Assembly: GCF_017368815.1 (NCBI RefSeq)
Contig: NZ_JAFNME010000019.1
Coordinates: 1 to 63,093 of the forward strand
DNA from: Comamonas denitrificans
Lineage (GTDB): Bacteria > Pseudomonadota > Gammaproteobacteria > Burkholderiales > Burkholderiaceae_C
Reading direction: 5' to 3'
Length of the DNA stretch: 63,093 bases
Position numbers and translations under genes: made by a program. The notes beneath the pieces are model-generated. The model was not told the origin of the DNA. It worked only from the letters and a program-made list of their open reading frames with translations, and made no database searches. Of this stretch, positions 1,802 to 54,590 are shown one piece after another (the stretch's first letter is position 1; the number at the start of each line of letters is the position of its first letter).

Positions 1802-2929
1802 TTACCCTGCCGTGCTGTGCGCCCAGCCGGCATCCACCCACGAAGAGAGCAGCTGCAGCGCATCGTCACTGAGCTGCTGCACTTCGGCCGAGGACAACTG
1901 CCGGGTATCGGCCAGCTGGCGCATCAGTTCGGCATCGCGGCCTGCGGCCAGGTAGCTTTCGCCGTTGATGAAGATGTGCTGCGCGTCGTAAAGCATGCGG
2001 GTGCGCTGGTTCAGGCGCACGTTTTCGATCAGACCAAAGTCGTCGGCCGGCTCAAACCACACGCCGGGTTTGGGGTCGCTCAAGGTTTCGCCCAGGGCAC
2101 GCTCCAGCGCCAAGGGCTCGGCCAGGGCTTTTTCCAGCGCTTGGCGGGCAAAGTCCAGCAAGGCCGCAGGAATTTCGCCCGGGTGGGCCACCGCCGTTTG
2201 CTTGGGGTCTTTGTACACCACATCCTTGGGGCACTCATCGGGCGCATCGGACAGGCGCAGAAACAGTTCACGCGCCAGCTCGTCTTGTTTGGGGGAGCGA
2301 AAACCGACGGAGTACGTCATGCACTCGCCCTCGGCAATGCCGTCGTGCGCCCACATGGGGGGCAGGTAGAGCATGTCGCCGGGCTCCAGCACGTATTCTT
2401 CTTCGGGCTCGAAGTGGGTGAGGATTTTCAGCGGCACATCGGGCTGCAGGCTGAGGTTTTTTTGCCGCCCAATTCGCCAGCGGCGCTTGCCATGGGCTTG
2501 CAGCAAGAACACATCGTAGTTGTCAAAGTGTGGGCCAACGCCGCCTTGGTCGGTGGCAAAGCTGATCATCAGGTCATCAAGCCGTGCATCCGGAATAAAG
2601 CGAAACGGCTGCAGCAACTCGTGCGCGGCCTGCACGTGCAAATCCACGCCTTGCACCAGCACCGTCCAGCCCGGTTGTTTCAGCGCGGGCAAGCGCCGGC
2701 GCGAAAACGGGCCGTGCGCCAGGCTCCACTGCCCGCCGCCTTGCTGTTGCACCAGGCGCGATTCGACACCGTCTTGTCCCGCCAAGTCCAGCAGCTCGGA
2801 GCGGCTGAGCAGCGGCTTGAAACCGGGGATGGCCTGGCGCACCAGCAGGGGCTTTTTATGCCAGTAGGTGCGCATGAATTGGGCGGGGGAGATACCACCA
2901 AGAAGAGCTAGAGGCGTACGTGTATCCAT
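1802..2929 (-). CDS. roxA: Ribosomal protein L16 arginine hydroxylase RoxA (YcfD, cupin/JmjC family)
   Basis: A 375-residue 2-oxoglutarate/Fe(II) oxygenase of the YcfD/RoxA family, which hydroxylates an arginine of ribosomal protein L16. The N-terminus has the family hallmark FMRTYWHKKPLLVRQAIPGF. The iron-binding HxD is in GGVGPHFDNYDVFLLQ, the distal histidine is in MWAHDGIAEGE, and the double-stranded beta-helix core continues with KRRWRIG and TYSVGFRSP. The C-terminal roughly 150 residues match the family's dimerisation and winged-helix part. It converges with the GGDEF gene (29 bases between stops) and is divergent from slyD. Length and motifs are normal for the family. Confidence 0.9.
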   Translation of the reverse strand: MDTRTPLALLGGISPAQFMRTYWHKKPLLVRQAIPGFKPLLSRSELLDLAGQDGVESRLVQQQGGGQWSLAHGPFSRRRLPALKQPGWTVLVQGVDLHVQAAHELLQPFRFIPDARLDDLMISFATDQGGVGPHFDNYDVFLLQAHGKRRWRIGRQKNLSLQPDVPLKILTHFEPEEEYVLEPGDMLYLPPMWAHDGIAEGECMTYSVGFRSPKQDELARELFLRLSDAPDECPKDVVYKDPKQTAVAHPGEIPAALLDFARQALEKALAEPLALERALGETLSDPKPGVWFEPADDFGLIENVRLNQRTRMLYDAQHIFINGESYLAAGRDAELMRQLADTRQLSSAEVQQLSDDALQLLSSWVDAGWAHSTAG

Positions 2930-3048
2930 GATTTAAGCCATTAAAGTATAAAAAACTGTTTATTTAAAAGCGCGAGTAGCTCTTATTTTTAAGAAAATTC
3001 GCCCGAAAGATGCTGCGATTGTGCAACGCCTGCGCACGCCAGCGCTTG

Positions 3049-3110
3049 CGACAGCACAACAAAACCAGCGCTTGCCCCGGCTATCGGGGCTGCTCCTACA
3101 ATCGCAGCCT
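3049..3110. repeat. REP-like GC-rich palindromic sequence upstream of slyD
   Basis: The 207-base gap between roxA and slyD contains two AGCGCTTG words and, near 3070-3090, a CCCCG/CGGGG inverted repeat followed by GGGCTGCTCCTACA. Read on the minus strand this begins TGTAGGAGCAGCCCCG, which resembles the small extragenic palindromes of other proteobacteria. No second full copy was seen in the window, so its status as a repeat rests on shape only. Confidence 0.3.
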
Positions 3111-3136
3111 TTTGCCAGAATGAAAGACTGCCGACC

Positions 3137-3682
3137 ATGCACCCAGCGCACCCCACCGAAGTCAGCGAACAATGTGTTGTTGCCCTGACCTGGACGTTAA
3201 AAGACACTTTGGGCGAGGTGCTGGATGTGCTGGAGACGCCGGTGGAATTTTTGGTGGGCGGCGATGATTTGCTCACCCGCATCGACCAGGCGCTGCAAGG
3301 CCACGCTGTGGGCGATACCCTGCAACTGCACCTGGAGCCGGAAGATGCCTTTGGCGACTATGACGAGCAGCGGGTGTTCCTCTCAGCCCGCAGCGCCTTT
3401 CCGGAGACCTTGGAAGAAGGCATGACTTTTGATGGCCTGGGCCTGCCCGCCAACGCCTGCCCGGATGCACCGCCAGAGCTGCTCTACACCGTTACCGAGA
3501 TTTATCCCGAGCATGTGGTGCTTGACGGCAACCACCCCTTGGCGGGGATTGCGCTGCGCATCGAGCTCAAAATTGAAGCCATTCGCGAAGCGACCGAAGA
3601 AGAAATTGGCCAGGGCAGCGCCGGAACGGGTTTTTTCCGCATCCAGCCGCCCATGGCCCCAGGGTCCAGCACGCTGCACTAA
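3137..3682 (+). CDS. slyD: FKBP-type peptidyl-prolyl cis-trans isomerase (SlyD-like)
   Basis: A 181-residue SlyD-type prolyl isomerase and chaperone, expected in the cytoplasm. The first half has the expected FKBP order, VVALTWTLKD, then PVEFLVGGDDLLTRIDQAL, then GDTLQLHLEPEDAFGDYDEQ, where the EPEDAFGDYD segment marks the insert-in-flap type. The ending DGNHPLAGIALRIELKIEAIREAT matches the DFNHPLAGK-type segment that closes the FKBP fold. The metal-binding histidine-rich tail of E. coli SlyD is missing; the C-terminus is short and ends SSTLH. It stands alone between roxA (divergent) and the ferric-reductase-like gene (convergent). Confidence 0.88.
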   Translation: MHPAHPTEVSEQCVVALTWTLKDTLGEVLDVLETPVEFLVGGDDLLTRIDQALQGHAVGDTLQLHLEPEDAFGDYDEQRVFLSARSAFPETLEEGMTFDGLGLPANACPDAPPELLYTVTEIYPEHVVLDGNHPLAGIALRIELKIEAIREATEEEIGQGSAGTGFFRIQPPMAPGSSTLH

Positions 3683-13755: not shown

Positions 13756-13778
13756 GCCCGGTATTATTGCCACCCCTA

Positions 13779-13940
13779 AGAACGTGTTCATGATCTCGAA
13801 TGAAGGTGTGGGGGATGCGGTTGGGGATGGGTTGCGAGGCGCAAACCACAGCAATAGCTTGGCTATTGCGAGGATTTGCAACGACGCAGACCGCCCGAAG
13901 CCGCGCCCGCACACCCATGAGGAGATCGTGAACACGTTCT
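13779..13940. mobile_element. 162-bp palindromic MITE-like element, copy 1
   Basis: The ends are inverted repeats of about 19 bases (AGAACGTGTTCATGATCTC at the left, the complement of GAGATCGTGAACACGTTCT at the right). Inside, the left and right halves pair imperfectly almost to the centre (GCAATAGCTTGGCTATTGC), so the whole element can fold back. A second copy at 27750-27911 differs at one base. No coding capacity is visible, so it would need a transposase from elsewhere. It occupies most of the shared control region of the orphan dctP and the sensor kinase. A further partial end (AGAACGTGTTGGCGATC) follows directly at 13942-13958. Confidence 0.85.
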
Positions 13941-13995
13941 AAGAACGTGTTGGCGATCCCCATCCACGTGCGCCACCACGGCCCTTTGTTCCTCC

Positions 13996-27734: not shown

Positions 27735-27749
27735 AACACTCCTTTTATA

Positions 27750-27911
27750 AGAACGTGTTCATGATCTCGAATGAAGGTGTGGGGGATGCGGTTCGGGATG
27801 GGTTGCGAGGCGCAAACCACAGCAATAGCTTGGCTATTGCGAGGATTTGCAACGACGCAGACCGCCCGAAGCCGCGCCCGCACACCCATGAGGAGATCGT
27901 GAACACGTTCT
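27750..27911. mobile_element. 162-bp palindromic MITE-like element, copy 2
   Basis: Identical to the copy at 13779-13940 except at one base in the left half, where this copy (GGTTCGGG) matches the opposite arm of the palindrome and so looks ancestral. It sits immediately upstream of the ABC-like gene. The remaining gap to parC (27912-28007) is AT-rich and holds no gene. Confidence 0.85.
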
Positions 27912-28007
27912 AAGAGCTGTTACCGCTTTATTTACCTTGTTTTATGGCGTTTTTTATTAAAAAAACCATTAAATTAAAGCGGATCAAGCTCTTGCTATGC
28001 ATAGTAT

Positions 28008-30354: not shown

Positions 30355-30412
30355 CAAAAAAATAGCTGCTAGCGCTTGTTGCATAAGGGCTAGATGCCAA
30401 AAACGTTCAAAT
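30355..30412. repeat. AGCTGCTAGCGCTT repeat, copy flanking the DUF1016 gene on the parC side
   Basis: AAAAAATAGCTGCTAGCGCT, a spacer, then AAGGGCTAGATGCCAAAAAC. The copy on the parE side (31050-31092) is in the same orientation and shares both the left part and the GTTAGATGCCAAAAAC-type right part. Confidence 0.75.
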
Positions 30413-31039: not shown

Positions 31040-31049
31040 ATTTCAAAAA

Positions 31050-31092
31050 CAATAGCTACTCACGCTTTCCTGAAAAGCGTTAGATGCCAAAA
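31050..31092. repeat. AGCTACTCACGCTTT repeat, copy flanking the DUF1016 gene on the parE side
   Basis: AACAATAGCTACTCACGCTT, a short spacer, then AAAGCGTTAGATGCCAAAAA, in the same orientation as the copy at 30355-30412. Confidence 0.72.
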
Positions 31093-31103
31093 ACACTAAA
31101 AAT

Positions 31104-38892: not shown

Positions 38893-39186
38893 ATGATCTA
38901 TGAATGGGACGAGGCCAAGCGCCTTGCCAATCTAAAAAAGCACGGTATTGATTTTCTAGATGCCGACTTGGTCATGGAAAGTGAATTTGTCTGGATCGTG
39001 GACAGTTCACGCAATAGCGAGCCACGCTATCAGGCGCTGGCCTATGTTTTTGACGTACTGATGGTGCTCTCAGTGGCCTTCGTCGAGCGCGATACCCAAT
39101 GCCGCATCATCAGCTTCCGGCCTGCACACGCAGAAGAAAGGAGTGCTTACTATGACTGGCTTGAAAACGACTACCCTGACCAGTGA
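38893..39186 (+). CDS. brnT: Type II toxin BrnT
   Basis: A 97-residue BrnT toxin, a RelE-fold ribonuclease that slows translation. The family pattern is clear: YEWDEAKRLANLKKHGIDFLDA at the start, then VFDVLMVLSVAFVERDTQCRIISFRPAHAEERSAYY-type C-terminal half, with the terminal arginine and tyrosine of the family. It precedes and overlaps brnA, the usual toxin-first order. An ATATACGTATAT palindrome lies just upstream. It sits between trxB and rpmB, apparently as an insertion in a housekeeping region. Confidence 0.9.
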   Translation: MIYEWDEAKRLANLKKHGIDFLDADLVMESEFVWIVDSSRNSEPRYQALAYVFDVLMVLSVAFVERDTQCRIISFRPAHAEERSAYYDWLENDYPDQ

Positions 39187-39469
39187 GCAAATCCACCAGG
39201 CTCGGGCACAGGGCCAATCGGCAAGCAATTGGCAGCAAGTGCGTCAAGCGCTGCATAGCCAAGACCCACAAGCCGAAGCACAAACCCAAGCCATTGCTCA
39301 GCTGATCGAACGCAAACGTGGCCGCCCCGTCCAGGGCGAGCCCAAAACAGCGATCTCCCTGCGTGTTCCCAACTCTGTCCTGGCTGCATTCAAGCAAACC
39401 GGCCCTGGTTGGCAAACACGCATGACAGATGCATTGCAAGAGTGGCTACGCACCCACCAGCTCACATAA
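39152..39469 (+). CDS. brnA: Type II antitoxin BrnA
   Basis: A 105-residue BrnA antitoxin. The C-terminal ribbon-helix-helix DNA-binding domain reads KTAISLRVPNSVLAAFKQTGPGWQTRMTDAL-type residues (about 68-100) and ends EWLRTHQLT. The N-terminal part (about 1-60) would wrap BrnT. ATG at 39152 has the ribosome-binding site AAAGGAG and overlaps brnT by 35 bases; GTG at 39143 is a weaker choice because it lies inside that site. Translational coupling and self-repression of the pair are expected. Confidence 0.88.
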   Translation: MTGLKTTTLTSEQIHQARAQGQSASNWQQVRQALHSQDPQAEAQTQAIAQLIERKRGRPVQGEPKTAISLRVPNSVLAAFKQTGPGWQTRMTDALQEWLRTHQLT

Positions 39470-39502
39470 GCACCTGAATCAAACTCCCCGCCAATAGAAA
39501 CC

Positions 39503-42024: not shown

Positions 42025-42875
42025 TGGCATTGCACACACACCGCTATATAAAAAAAATAGCTACTAGCGCTTACCCAACAAGGGATAAAGAGCAAAAACA
42101 CTTGAAATTCCAGGCCGGCCTGACACTGATTGAGCTCATGATTGGCCTTGCCGTTGGTCTGCTTGTGGTCGCCGTGGCCACGGTCTCGCTGCTGGGCTCG
42201 CGCAGCGTGACCGGGGCCGTCAGCGATATCAGTGGCATCCAGCAGCAAGCCGCCTACGTTATGCGCACCTTTGGCACCCAATTGCGCCAGGCTGGCTCGC
42301 TCTACCTTGATTTGGGCCTGGATGCTGACGGTGATGGCGAGATCACCTCCGCCACTGCCTTCCAGCTGCGTGGCAGCACCGACACAGCCATCGCCGAAAA
42401 CAATGGCAGCGTCACCATTCGTTTCACCGGCTACGAAGAACCCACTTTTGCCAATGCTGGCCCCATCTCCCGCAACTGTCTGGGCGCTCCTGGAAGCATC
42501 CCTGCCGGAACGACTACCTCTATCGAGAGCATCTTTACCCTCAATGGCACAGATTTGCGCTGCAACGACCAACCCATTGCCCAAAACGTCGCTGCTTTCC
42601 AAGTGCGCTACCTGCTACAAGGCACCGATCAAGATGACCCCACCATGCTCTACACCAACAGTGCAGGCGTAGCAGACTGGAACCGGGTTCAAGGTGTAGA
42701 AGTCTGCCTGGTGCTGTTTGGCACCGAACGTATCGACCTGCCCGAAGGTGCCAGCTACACCGGCTGCGACGGCAGCACCGCTGTGAACATCACCACCCTG
42801 GCCGCTCCACGCACCAACCGGATGCACTACGTGTTTCGCAATGTCTTCCAACTGCGCAGCCAAGGGCTGATTTAA
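42024..42875 (+). CDS. pilW: Type IV pilus assembly protein PilW
   Basis: A 283-residue minor pilin. The cleavage site is in FQAGLTLIELMIGLAVGLLV, with leucine at +1 and glutamate at +5. The PilW-type body has SDISGIQQQAAYVMRTFGTQLRQAG and the ending NVFQLRSQG. The leader before the cleavage site is unusually long (about 30 residues instead of 5-20), and residues 8-22 or so are encoded by sequence that matches a dispersed palindromic repeat (see the repeat at 42049-42102). The ATG at 42024 overlaps the pilV stop. An alternative start further in, with a normal leader, is not visible. Confidence 0.9.
   Translation: MALHTHRYIKKIATSAYPTRDKEQKHLKFQAGLTLIELMIGLAVGLLVVAVATVSLLGSRSVTGAVSDISGIQQQAAYVMRTFGTQLRQAGSLYLDLGLDADGDGEITSATAFQLRGSTDTAIAENNGSVTIRFTGYEEPTFANAGPISRNCLGAPGSIPAGTTTSIESIFTLNGTDLRCNDQPIAQNVAAFQVRYLLQGTDQDDPTMLYTNSAGVADWNRVQGVEVCLVLFGTERIDLPEGASYTGCDGSTAVNITTLAAPRTNRMHYVFRNVFQLRSQGLI
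42049..42102 (+). repeat. AGCTACTAGCGCTT repeat inside the pilW leader
   Basis: AAAATAGCTACTAGCGCTTA, then AAGGGATAAAGAGCAAAAAC, resembles the intergenic copies near 30360 and 31055 along most of its length. It is in frame and extends the PilW leader. Confidence 0.65.
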
Positions 42876-47594: not shown

Positions 47595-48026
47595 ATGAAA
47601 AAAAACTACCTCTCCCACATGCCATACCCGTCCCGCCAAACCGGCTTCACCCTGATTGAGGTCATGATCGTGGTGGCGATCATTGGCATCTTGAGCTCCA
47701 TCGCCTACCCCAGCTACACCGAATACGTGCGCAAGGGCCACCGCGCCAACGCCATGGCAGGGTTGCTGGAAGCGGCACGGTGGATGGAGCGGGCCGCCAC
47801 GGCTACGGGGACGTATCCCGTGACGGCCAACTTCCCTGCCAACTTAAAAACTGTGGAAGGTGACCGCTACGATATTGCTGCAGTGTCTGACGGTGCCACT
47901 TTTACTCTGACGGCTACCCCAAAAGGAGCGCAATCCGGTGATAAATGCGGTAATTTCACCCTGACCAATACCGGTGCAAAGGATGTGAGCGTCAGCGGCA
48001 AAAAGGCCGAATGCTGGGGGAAATAA
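47595..48026 (+). CDS. pilE: Type IV pilin PilE (minor pilin at the end of the operon)
   Basis: A 143-residue prepilin with leader [21 protein letters not shown] (phenylalanine +1, glutamate +5) and [20 protein letters not shown]. The C-terminal pair of cysteines (GDKCGNF and KKAECWGK) forms the expected disulfide. As the last gene after pilY1 it is the PilE that belongs to the minor-pilin priming complex rather than the major pilin. ATG at 47595 has an AAGGGA site. Its last codon and stop codon are the first bases of a 93-bp duplicated sequence that also contains the beginning of ribD. Confidence 0.92.
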
Positions 48027-48113
48027 TGCTCTAGCATTCACGGCATGACTGACCATGCTATTTACATGCAAGAAGCGCTTGGGCTGGCCGCCCAGGCGCT
48101 TTTTTTATCCAAT
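48021..48113 (+). pseudogene. Duplicated pilE-ribD junction, left copy (truncated ribD head)
   Basis: These 93 bases match 48773-48865 at all but one position. The repeat begins with the final AAA-TAA of pilE, includes the intergenic bases, and ends 23 codons into a ribD reading frame beginning ATG at 48045. After base 48113 the frame diverges from ribD, so this is a dead ribD head. The toxin-antitoxin module lies between the two copies. Confidence 0.9.
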
Positions 48114-48119
48114 TGCAAA

Positions 48120-48141
48120 ATCGTGAACGAACGATTACGAT
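48120..48141. promoter_or_regulatory. ATCGT...ACGAT repeats, candidate operator of the toxin-antitoxin pair
   Basis: ATCGTGAACGAACGATTACG contains an inverted pair ATCGT/ACGAT and a second ACGAT, between the duplicated ribD head and the toxin start. The position suits autoregulation by the antitoxin; this is inference. Confidence 0.35.
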
Positions 48142-48147
48142 TGGGCC

Positions 48148-48447
48148 ATGTATATAGTCAAGCAACTGCCGGAGTTTTCCCTCTGGCTGTCCAGCCTGCG
48201 TGACGGCATGACACGCCGCCGCCTTGCACGACGGCTGGAAAAGGTGCAACGCGGCCTTCTGGGGGATGTGCAGCCCGTGGGAGAAGGCGTATATGAGATG
48301 CGTGAGTTCTTTGGCCCTGGCTGGCGCATGTATTACGTACAGCGCGGTGACGTGCTGATTGTCATGTTGGCCGGTGGCGACAAATCCACCCAGCAGGCCG
48401 ATATCACCCACGCAATCGCTCTGGCCCAAACTATCGAAGGAGTATGA
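48148..48447 (+). CDS. RelE/ParE-superfamily toxin (HigB-like addiction module killer)
   Basis: A 99-residue toxin of the RelE/ParE type, in the subgroup often called addiction-module killer protein: LPEFSLWLSSLRDGMTRRRL, then RLEKVQRGLLGDVQPVGEGVYE, then FFGPGWRMYYVQRGDVLIVM, LLAGGDKSTQQADI-like. The conserved arginine-tyrosine in WRMYYVQ is probably catalytic or structural. It precedes its antitoxin, with an ATGA overlap. The pair lies in 660 bases inserted between pilE and ribD, bounded by a 93-bp direct repeat. Confidence 0.88.
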   Translation: MYIVKQLPEFSLWLSSLRDGMTRRRLARRLEKVQRGLLGDVQPVGEGVYEMREFFGPGWRMYYVQRGDVLIVMLAGGDKSTQQADITHAIALAQTIEGV

Positions 48448-48758
48448 GCATGACCAAGAAGATGAACGTCGCCGATCTGCCTGAGTTCGATATGGCCGAA
48501 CACCTGGACAGTGACCTGGCGATTGCCGAATACCTCAGCATCGTTCTGGAAGAAAACGATCCTGCCGAGCTGACCCACGCACTGGGAACCATTGCCCGCG
48601 CCCGTGGAATGACCGAGGTGGCCCGCGCCAGCGGCCTGACGCGCGAGGCGTTGTACAAGGCCCTGCGTCCTACATCCCAACCGCGCTTTGACACCATCAT
48701 GAAGGTGCTGCAGGCAATGGGATTGCAATTCAGTGTGCAAGCTGTTAAGCAATCTTGA
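48444..48758 (+). CDS. HigA-like antitoxin with XRE-type helix-turn-helix
   Basis: A 104-residue antitoxin paired with the preceding toxin. The C-terminal helix-turn-helix reads GTIARARGMTEVARASGLTR, followed by EALYKALRPTSQPRFDTIMK, typical of the putative addiction-module antidote family. The N-terminal FDMAEHLDSDLAIAEYLSIVL is the toxin-binding arm. The ATG at 48444 overlaps the toxin stop; an alternative start at 48450 is possible. It is expected to repress its own operon. Confidence 0.88.
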   Translation: MSMTKKMNVADLPEFDMAEHLDSDLAIAEYLSIVLEENDPAELTHALGTIARARGMTEVARASGLTREALYKALRPTSQPRFDTIMKVLQAMGLQFSVQAVKQS

Positions 48759-48772
48759 GCCGCATGGCGCAC

Positions 48773-48865
48773 AAATAATGCTCTAGCATTCACAGCATGA
48801 CTGACCATGCTATTTACATGCAAGAAGCGCTTGGGCTGGCCGCCCAGGCGCTTTTTTTATCCAAT
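48773..48865 (+). repeat. Duplicated pilE-ribD junction, right copy (functional ribD head)
   Basis: This copy includes the real ribD start at 48797. It starts with AAATAATG, the bases that at 48021 form the end of pilE. The single difference from the left copy is G/A in CATTCACRGC. The two copies bracket 659 bases containing only the toxin-antitoxin pair. Confidence 0.92.
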
Positions 48866-49930
48866 CCCAATCCACGTGTCGGCTGCGTGCTGGTGGGCCG
48901 CAGCGGCGCGGTCATTGGCCGGGGTTTTACCCAACAGGCCGGAGGGCCGCATGCCGAAGTGATGGCGCTGCGCGATGCCGCCGCACAGGGGCACAGCACC
49001 CAGGGGGCCACGGCGTATGTGACGCTGGAGCCCTGCGCCCACCACGGGCGCACCGGGCCATGCTGCGAGGCGCTGATTGCCGCCGGGGTGGCCCAGGTGG
49101 TAGGGGCGCTGACCGACCCCAATCCCCAGGTGGCGGGCCAGGGTTTTGCCCGGCTGCAGGCGGCAGGGGTGGCCGTTGAAGTGGGGCCAGGGGCGGCGGC
49201 TTCGCGGGCGCTGAATATTGGTTTTTTTAGCCGCATGGAGCGGGGCCGCCCGTGGGTGCGGCTGAAGGCCGCTACGTCGCTGGACGGGGCCACCGCCCTG
49301 GGCAATGGGGCCAGCCAATGGATTACCAGCCCAGCGGCACGGGCCGATGGCCACCACTGGCGGGCGCGGGCCTGTGCGGTGCTGACGGGGATTGGCACGA
49401 TTTTGGCGGACGACCCGCAGCTGAACGTTCGCGCCGTGGCCACGCCGCGCCAGCCGCAGGTGGTGGTGGTCGATAGCCAGTTGCGCATACCGCTGGATGC
49501 TAAGGTTTTAAGAGCTGGTAGCGCTTGTATTATCTATACTTCAGTATTAAATATACAAAAAACCAAACAATTACAAGCGCTAGGCGCTACTGTTATTCAT
49601 CTACCCAGTGCCCAAGGGCAAGTGGATTTGGCGGCGATGCTGGCCGATTTAGGGCAGCGCTCGATCAATGAGTTGCATGTTGAGGCGGGAGCCATCCTCA
49701 ACGGTGCTTTGCTGGCGCAGGGGCTGGTCGATGAGTTGTTGCTGTATTTGGCCCCCACGCTGTTGGGCCAGGGCTGCAAAGGCATGGCGGCACTGGGGCC
49801 ACTGCAAGATTTAGGCCAAGCGCTGCCCTGGCAGTTTCACGAGGTCACCCCTATTGGCCCAGATTTGCGGGTGCTGGCACGCCAGCCGACATCGGCTGTT
49901 GGCAGCGCTGCAGGGCCAACCACTGGGTAA
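48797..49930 (+). CDS. ribD: Bifunctional diaminohydroxyphosphoribosylaminopyrimidine deaminase/5-amino-6-(5-phosphoribosylamino)uracil reductase RibD
   Basis: A 377-residue enzyme for steps two and three of riboflavin synthesis. The deaminase domain (1-145) has the zinc ligands in GGPHAEVMALRDA and PCAHHGRTGPCCEAL. The reductase domain follows (GRPWVRLKAATSLDGATAL, ITSPAARADGHHWRARA, NELHVEAGAILNGALL). Bases 49503-49597 are AT-rich and include inverted GGTAGCGCTTGTA/TACAAGCGCTAGG words of the window's repeat family, read in frame between the reductase strands. The C-terminus overlaps the convergent dusC by 80 bases and its last 15 residues are not conserved in type. Its head is duplicated upstream at 48021. 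Confidence 0.93.
   Translation: MTDHAIYMQEALGLAAQALFLSNPNPRVGCVLVGRSGAVIGRGFTQQAGGPHAEVMALRDAAAQGHSTQGATAYVTLEPCAHHGRTGPCCEALIAAGVAQVVGALTDPNPQVAGQGFARLQAAGVAVEVGPGAAASRALNIGFFSRMERGRPWVRLKAATSLDGATALGNGASQWITSPAARADGHHWRARACAVLTGIGTILADDPQLNVRAVATPRQPQVVVVDSQLRIPLDAKVLRAGSACIIYTSVLNIQKTKQLQALGATVIHLPSAQGQVDLAAMLADLGQRSINELHVEAGAILNGALLAQGLVDELLLYLAPTLLGQGCKGMAALGPLQDLGQALPWQFHEVTPIGPDLRVLARQPTSAVGSAAGPTTG
49503..49600 (+). repeat. AGCGCTTGTA palindrome inside ribD
   Basis: AGAGCTGGTAGCGCTTGTA (from 49511) and TACAAGCGCTAGGCGCTAC (near 49574-49592) are inverted and enclose an AT-rich core. The stretch keeps the ribD frame (AGSACIIYTSVLNIQKTKQL). Confidence 0.6.
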
Positions 49931-54337: not shown

Positions 54338-54506
54338 GGGAGCAGACAAAAAATAATAGTTAGGGAAAACGAAAGAACGCGATTGTCTAAGAATTCATTT
54401 TTTTTGCCAGTTTTTGGTGTAGGAATCCATAAACTGAAGTACGGCTGTTGGCCGTTTCTTGCCCTTGTGCAATGGATATGCTAATGCAGAAGGAAAAAAA
54501 TTTTAG

Positions 54507-54590
54507 GAGCTGTCAGCGCTTTGCTGGTAAGCGTTAGAGGGCTAAAACAATGAAAAAATCCTCCCTCTACCAAGAGGGAGGATTGTCAGC
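54507..54590. terminator. Repeat-family palindrome followed by a strong terminator
   Basis: AGCTGTCAGCGCTTTGC with AAGCGTTAGAGGGCT is another member of the AGCGCTT family. Next to it, AATCCTCCCTCT and AGAGGGAGGATT form a stable hairpin whose minus-strand side ends in a T run, serving the membrane-protein gene at 54621. Confidence 0.8.

Follow-up and report, generated by a model that had tools for sequence, protein, structure and literature searches.

A toxin-antitoxin unit bracketed by a 93-bp duplication of the pilE-ribD junction in Comamonas: probable insertion with long target duplication and lateral passage

Introduction

How can a toxin-antitoxin (TA) unit settle between two host genes, bracketed by two copies of their junction, and leave both genes intact? 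This question is raised by a locus of Comamonas denitrificans on contig NZ_JAFNME010000019.1, of which the whole stretch of 63,093 nucleotides (hereafter the window) was analysed. A preliminary description, made from the sequence alone, had noticed the repeats and had interpreted them as the trace of an inserted addiction module. Here, the locus is compared with the corresponding junctions of relatives in the same genus (G numbers; G000 is the window's own genome) and with other TA loci (L numbers, which are also given to ribD loci of the genus), and the competing explanations are weighed.

A duplicated stretch between two intact genes

The unit is bracketed by direct repeats at 48021..48113 and 48773..48865 of the forward strand. 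Comparison within the window gives 92 identical positions out of 93, the same figure as counted before, and a start-to-start spacing of 752; the single mismatch is a G at 48042 against an A at 48794, and the extended repeat comprises 98 nt at 97%. As the preliminary description had it, the stretch runs from the last codon of pilE into the start of ribD, with its 5' edge at AAA TAA (48021-48026) and its 3' edge at ribD codon 23. The left copy holds the end of pilE, a hairpin (see below) and a ribD head that had rightly been called dead: a 52-aa ORF (48045..48203, forward strand) matches RibD residues 1-24 at 96%, its similarity to ribD stops at the end of the repeat, and a Pfam search gave no match for it. 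With 93 bp, 92 of them identical, the repeats around the unit exceed transposon target duplications in length.

The upstream gene, pilE (47595..48026, forward strand; PF16732 ComP_DUS, PF07963), encodes a minor type IV pilin and is intact, its last codon and stop lying inside the left copy. Downstream, ribD (48797..49930, forward strand) is also intact, with 377 aa and a TIGR00326 score of 345 bits against a cut-off of 156. Judging from the full-length RibD and the retained pilE stop codon, both flanking genes would stay functional, as had been proposed. The additional suggestion that the unit settled between essential genes applies at most to ribD; pilE, which encodes a ComP_DUS-type minor pilin, is not known as an essential gene. 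Within ribD, an A+T-rich segment at 49500-49600 carries AGCGCTT and AAGCGCT near its ends and resembles, by eye, a dispersed repeat of ~56 nt found elsewhere in the window (30356-30411, 31046-31101, 42051-42106 and 54500-54555; 61-73% identical to the reference copy, with a common AGCGCTT core and an A-rich end); a copy of the repeat may have entered the RibD reading frame here without breaking it. The window also contains a 168-nt direct repeat at 99% identity, the copies of which (13777-13944 and 27748-27915) lie 14 kb apart.

Between the two copies of the junction lies a unit of ~650 bp. The toxin gene comes first (48148..48447, forward strand; 99 aa) and its product belongs to the RelE/ParE family (TIGR02683, HI1419-like; 115.6 bits against a cut-off of 62.85, with a Gp49 match), and it is followed by an adjacent antitoxin gene (48444..48758, forward strand; 104 aa; TIGR02684/PF21716; 120.2 bits against 53.7), the ORF of which overlaps the toxin stop. 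Both score over the curated cut-offs. This agrees with the earlier count of exactly one TA pair, as no other recognisable gene lies between the copies; specifically, an ORF, profile and Pfam search of that interval detected neither a transposase nor an integrase. On the opposite strand, ORFs of 64-139 aa run across the TA genes; four of these were compared with Pfam (E<=0.01) and gave no match, and we regard the reverse-strand ORFs as shadow ORFs. Nothing unusual was seen in the TA proteins themselves, and a sequence search of PDB chains at E<=0.01 gave no match for either toxin or antitoxin.

Empty and occupied junctions among relatives

If the unit was inserted, a site without it should hold the stretch once, a check that the preliminary description had named. 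A survey of 30 ribD loci of the genus, including the window's own, found 15 empty junctions, in which the pilE match ends 22-69 bp before the ribD match with no toxin in between, and in the nearest empty relative (G005) the end of pilE is followed by the stretch, present once, and by ribD. Two of the 30 loci are occupied (G000 and G012), and the remaining 13 have a different upstream arrangement or lack a full-length pilE match. Seven loci with another upstream arrangement were inspected by eye: other pilin-like ORFs are present in L010, L018, L019, L020 and L030, a broken-up pilin region lies upstream of ribD in L007, there is no pilin at that place in L005, and no TA cargo was recognised upstream of ribD in any of the seven.

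The second occupied junction is found in an uncultured Comamonas sp. (isolate ISORED-1, contig CABIIJ010000030.1; G012). There, the unit stands at the same pilE-ribD junction, flanked by both repeat copies (97 bp at 93%), and its toxin shares 98% amino-acid identity with that of G000. An assembly artefact is unlikely, since this separate assembly shows the same arrangement. Additionally, 53 genomes of the genus were searched with the right copy plus 125 bp, the best 15 candidates being scored per genome. The query matched in 51 of them and, among the matches listed, a second match over most of the repeat part occurs only in G000 and G012, the one additional match in G030 being short (46 bases) and situated elsewhere. 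No relative with two repeat copies and no TA was found among these 53 genomes and 30 ribD loci. Two situations had been named in advance as contrary to an insertion, namely a TA module that lacks the repeat and an empty site that lacks the sequence; instead, the occupied G012 has the repeat and the empty G005 has the sequence.

The two occupied sites differ at the left edge of the insert. In G012, the left copy is separated from the insert by a gap of 37 bases that is edged by ATCCAA on either side, and the arrangement in the window may be read as a small deletion between these ATCCAA microrepeats. By the same token, the left copy in the window may end in ~7 bases that stem from the edge of the insert rather than from the target, and the original duplication may have measured ~86-103 bp.

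Passage of the unit between species

The unit diverges far less than its surroundings. Between G000 and G012, the flanking blocks nearest the unit are 77-90% identical (84% pooled), whereas the toxin and antitoxin genes reach 94-99% per block. At fourfold sites, 8 of 106 differ in the TA genes against 70 of 179 in ribD (p=1e-9) and 31 of 66 in pilE, i.e., 39-47% in the host genes. The RibD tree has the form (G000,(G012,G005)), with a support of 100/99 for the grouping of G012 with G005 and of 99/96 for the other node; therefore, occupancy does not follow the tree. Moreover, ribD differs between G012 and G005 at 34 of 202 fourfold sites, which exceeds the TA divergence between G000 and G012 (p=0.02). 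The low divergence of the TA genes relative to host genes, together with the grouping of G012 with the empty G005, shows that the unit moved sideways: it was transferred horizontally between species, into an identical position. In the simplest history, it crossed between the lineages of G000 and G012, or both obtained it from a third, and the crossing took place after G012 and G005 had parted. As for a carrier of a close copy, no phage match was found and all 34 plasmid records are at 60-80% identity, and neither phage nor plasmid carriage is favoured.

The pilE gene behaves differently from ribD. Its fourfold divergence between G012 and G005 (24/60) is no less than that between G000 and G012 or between G000 and G005 (20/58), so that pilE does not show the sister relation of G012 and G005; the gene may itself have recombined, or it may evolve fast on its own.

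Did the repeats arise afresh in each species or did they travel with the unit? Counted over 93 positions, the two copies differ at 1 in G000 and at 8 in G012, and the copies of G012 differ from those of G000 at 5-9 (the G000 left copy at 5 from the G012 right copy and at 8 from the G012 left copy). The single copy of G005 differs from the four occupied-site copies at 14-17 positions (14 and 17 for those of G012). Given the flank divergence of 16%, and treating sites as binomial with this one pairwise rate, the probability of at most 8 differences in 93 is 0.025 and that of at most 6 is 0.004. The repeat copies are closer than the flank divergence predicts, and thus the transfer probably brought the repeat sequence along; the same distances speak against insertions that were wholly independent in the two species. 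Since the same unit occupies the same site in a second lineage and was transferred horizontally, the repeats of G000, of G012 or of both may be imports, or may have served as homology for recombination, and need not be a fresh duplication. At columns 39 and 45, both G000 copies have states in common that are absent from the other copies compared, and the copies of G012 share other states with G000. These informative sites are too few to separate a fresh duplication per lineage from import with gene conversion: a fresh duplication in one lineage followed by conversion and an import followed by conversion both fit.

A hairpin within the duplicated stretch

Folding places a terminator-like hairpin in the left copy (48074..48100, forward strand), with an 11-bp stem, a loop of 5 and a run of six T, and alignment comparison finds the same hairpin within the living ribD, at codons 10-19 (48826..48852, forward strand). 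The left copy with five more bases folds at -37 kcal/mol (z -4.2). A consensus scan of 47950-48900 returned no terminator and no promoter and did not list the hairpin, an omission that we ascribe to the possible extension of the stem into the run of T; Rfam gave one match only, far below its gathering score. Across the genus, in a comparison of loci among L002-L031 and L062-L091 (60 loci scanned, 37 distinct sequences), 88% of the cells are paired against 32-47% when the hairpin is slid, and compensatory exchanges (A-T/G-C and G-C/C-G) are seen at pairs 9 and 10. The hairpin is present in most of the genus and is missing from several more distant rows; with its T run, it is embedded in the reading frame at the very start of ribD, and it also occurs in L005 and L006, which have no upstream pilE. 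In its place within ribD, the hairpin could be a translation-sensitive attenuator of this gene. The left hairpin now separates pilE from the TA unit, so that transcripts from pilE may be kept out of the latter.

Repeat-bracketed TA units at other loci

A search for other TA pairs bracketed by direct repeats, which had been suggested from the window, was fruitful in part: it yielded a few candidate footprints of the same kind (L133, L167 and L399), but a test on held-out loci failed to reach significance (see below). At L167 (Acidovorax sp. NO-1), a putative footprint consists of two sharp-edged copies of a 459-bp repeat at 94%, the right one comprising the 3' part of an intact hydroxyisobutyrate-dehydrogenase-like gene (PF14833) and 47 bp past it, and the left one a dead tail. 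At L133 (Desulfuromonadales; 2041-3614), the candidate repeat measures 144-152 bp at 91%, the left copy being a dead head and the right copy the start of a sigma-54 response regulator; the unit at this locus holds two TA pairs together, one of the TIGR02683 type and one ParE/Phd-YefM. At the BrnT locus L399, the end of an aldehyde dehydrogenase gene lies in the right copy of a candidate 140-bp repeat at 92% and a dead tail in the left. Further candidate repeats with sharp edges were noted at L128 (85 bp), L132 (57 bp), L135 (109 bp), L166 (56 bp) and L259 (40 bp); for the latter, no empty site was found and there is no close relative among 11 genomes. Altogether, the repeats kept at other TA loci span 40 to 459 bp and are unrelated in sequence, and those of L128, L136, L166 and L167 contain a hairpin read by eye as a terminator. 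At L125, the TA is bracketed by a 45-bp duplicated piece that was read by eye as a tRNA end, and at L243 by an integron-like attC repeat. As a separate observation, a CRISPR-like array at L118 (6729-8122; 21 exact copies of a 36-base unit at a spacing of 67-71 bases) begins ~200 bp downstream of a close relative of the pilE-ribD TA pair.

Is such bracketing more than chance? A first test required a repeat of at least 40 bp at 85% identity or more, with copy 1 at most 800 bp upstream of the toxin and copy 2 at a downstream distance of 200-1300 bp. Of 101 toxin loci, 12 were positive, against 1 of 300 shifted placements (10/99 without G000 and G012; p=5e-6), these thresholds having been chosen after an exploratory look at the same loci. 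Applied to held-out loci, of which 10 out of 86 were skipped for short flanks, the same test found 6/76 against 6/161, which is not significant (p=0.21). A tighter test, set after both results were known (at most 250 bp to copy 1, and 200-450 bp from the toxin to copy 2), gave 7/107 in the first set and 3/79 in the second against 0/3909 and 7/2285 placements, respectively. Pooled, this amounts to 10 of 186 TA loci, a count that takes in G000 and G012, and to 7 positives among 6194 background placements; the placements overlap and are non-independent. The strict positives include the attC-like L243, the multi-copy L217 and the overlapping sub-repeats of L048; setting L243 and L217 aside leaves L259 as the only one of the three in the second set.

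Among BrnT toxins, 4 of 84 loci (90 fetched) passed the tight test, as did 5 of 926 placements; of these four loci, L319 and L368 are multi-copy. In the acetyltransferase family, for which no placements were possible, none of 29 loci (30 fetched) passed. These numbers do not show the footprint to be peculiar to one TA family. The footprint exists at several TA loci and is rare; on account of the held-out result, no general rate is claimed, nor any excess over other genes. The window itself contains a second TA pair (38902-39470), in which a BrnT gene (PF04365), following a gene read as thioredoxin reductase, is joined by a downstream antitoxin-like ORF recognised by eye; no repeat family has copies on both sides of this pair within 2 kb.

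Origin, spread and persistence of the unit

We consider it probable that a TA unit of the HI1419/HI1420 type entered the pilE-ribD junction and duplicated ~90-100 bp of its target, the end of pilE and the start of ribD being kept. An insertion of this kind, with long target duplication and an addiction module as cargo, was what the preliminary description had put forward, and the empty sites and the occupied G012 with its repeats argue in its favour. Given that neither a transposase nor an integrase gene was detected in the unit, the insertion itself would have made the repeats, incoming DNA having been joined illegitimately or exchanged unequally. The unit would then have passed between lineages by homologous recombination through the repeats or the flanks. 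This recombination mechanism is one that we infer, none of its steps having been directly observed. Duplications are reported to arise during transformation when repeated fragments are exchanged unequally (PMC3784515); these duplications, of about 100-900 kb, are far larger than ~93 bp, and they serve as an analogy only. Once established, the pair could persist although its repeats are prone to recombine: a precise excision would take the antitoxin gene away, and the more stable toxin would then kill or arrest the cell. Whether type II TA pairs at large are mobile by themselves, with long target duplication and neither transposase nor carrier, guard their own repeats and are aided by these in their passage across species, is a broader idea that we put forward tentatively and with more doubt than conviction.

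The spread of the unit could also have taken another route, in which the repeats of another genome recombined and released a circle made of the unit and one target copy, and a single crossover between this circle and the resident copy led to Campbell-type integration. Such an event would yield exactly the geometry observed and explain why the high identity between G000 and G012 is limited to repeat-TA-repeat, with adjoining flanks at ~84%; the two copies of G012 can likewise be read as a mosaic. Such a route, for which the informative sites are too few to map crossovers, accounts for the spread but not for the first insertion, and it is compatible with the origin preferred here; we rate it as possible, though unlikely. 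The use of the same site in two lineages and the restoration of an intact gene on one side are also what would be expected if the 93-bp copies were att-like sites and a small cassette had been placed at the start of ribD by a site-specific recombinase encoded elsewhere, and the TAs of L125 and L243, bracketed by a tRNA-end-like duplicate and an attC-like repeat, add to this picture. However, no recombinase gene was found between the copies, the varied lengths and unrelated sequences of the repeats at other TA loci are unlike the att sites of one enzyme, and the attC signature is absent from the pilE-ribD repeat (no GTTRRRY/RYYYAAC pair in the left copy and 15 bases on either side), which makes this account improbable.

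Coincidence would require either that an old tandem duplication of the junction was later hit by a TA or that a larger element was lost and left the TA behind. Long direct repeats do bracket non-TA positions too, as seen in both the strict (7/6194) and the looser (6/161) placements, but the genus survey holds no relative with the duplication and without the TA, and no other recognisable gene is left between the copies; we give this explanation little credence. Insertion of the TA unit with duplication of its target remains the reading that we favour for the origin of the locus.

Relation to known systems

The pilE-ribD locus provides a polarised example, with an empty site, an occupied site, a second occupied species and a footprint that points to a process described for restriction-modification (RM) units. 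The locus opens the question to tests by genome comparison and offers a reason why repeats of this kind might be maintained, though they are expected to recombine away. The unit itself resembles other members of the TIGR02683/TIGR02684 (HI1419/HI1420-like) family in having the toxin first, an overlapping antitoxin and both scores over the cut-offs.

Chromosomal integrons carry TA cassettes bracketed by direct repeats, and L243 looks like such a case. The pilE-ribD unit differs from these cassettes in that its 93-bp repeat consists of host gene ends without an attC core pair, and in that it is a single unit and not part of an array. Another TA pair in an intergenic gap is ccdAB, which lies between folA and apaH in E. 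coli, the gap being without a TA in other strains (PMC7232551; PMC7167474); the accessible text of these papers mentions no long flanking duplication. Likewise, the literature searched, in which subscription journals are mostly not covered, yielded no report of a long target duplication for a type II TA pair.

The closest parallel lies with RM units, whose insertion with long target duplication was reportedly described by Nobusato et al. in 2000 and by Furuta et al. in 2010. In the accessible text of more recent papers, some RM systems are described as inserting with long and variable target duplications on the order of 100 bp (PMC3874152), and a long target duplication is likewise given for RM units in PMC3031569. 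As far as these texts go, the likeness consists of a small addiction-type unit without a transposase of its own and of long direct repeats that are revealed by comparison of related genomes. The pilE-ribD locus differs from them in its cargo, a type II TA pair, and in that one site is occupied in two species, with horizontal transfer of the unit.
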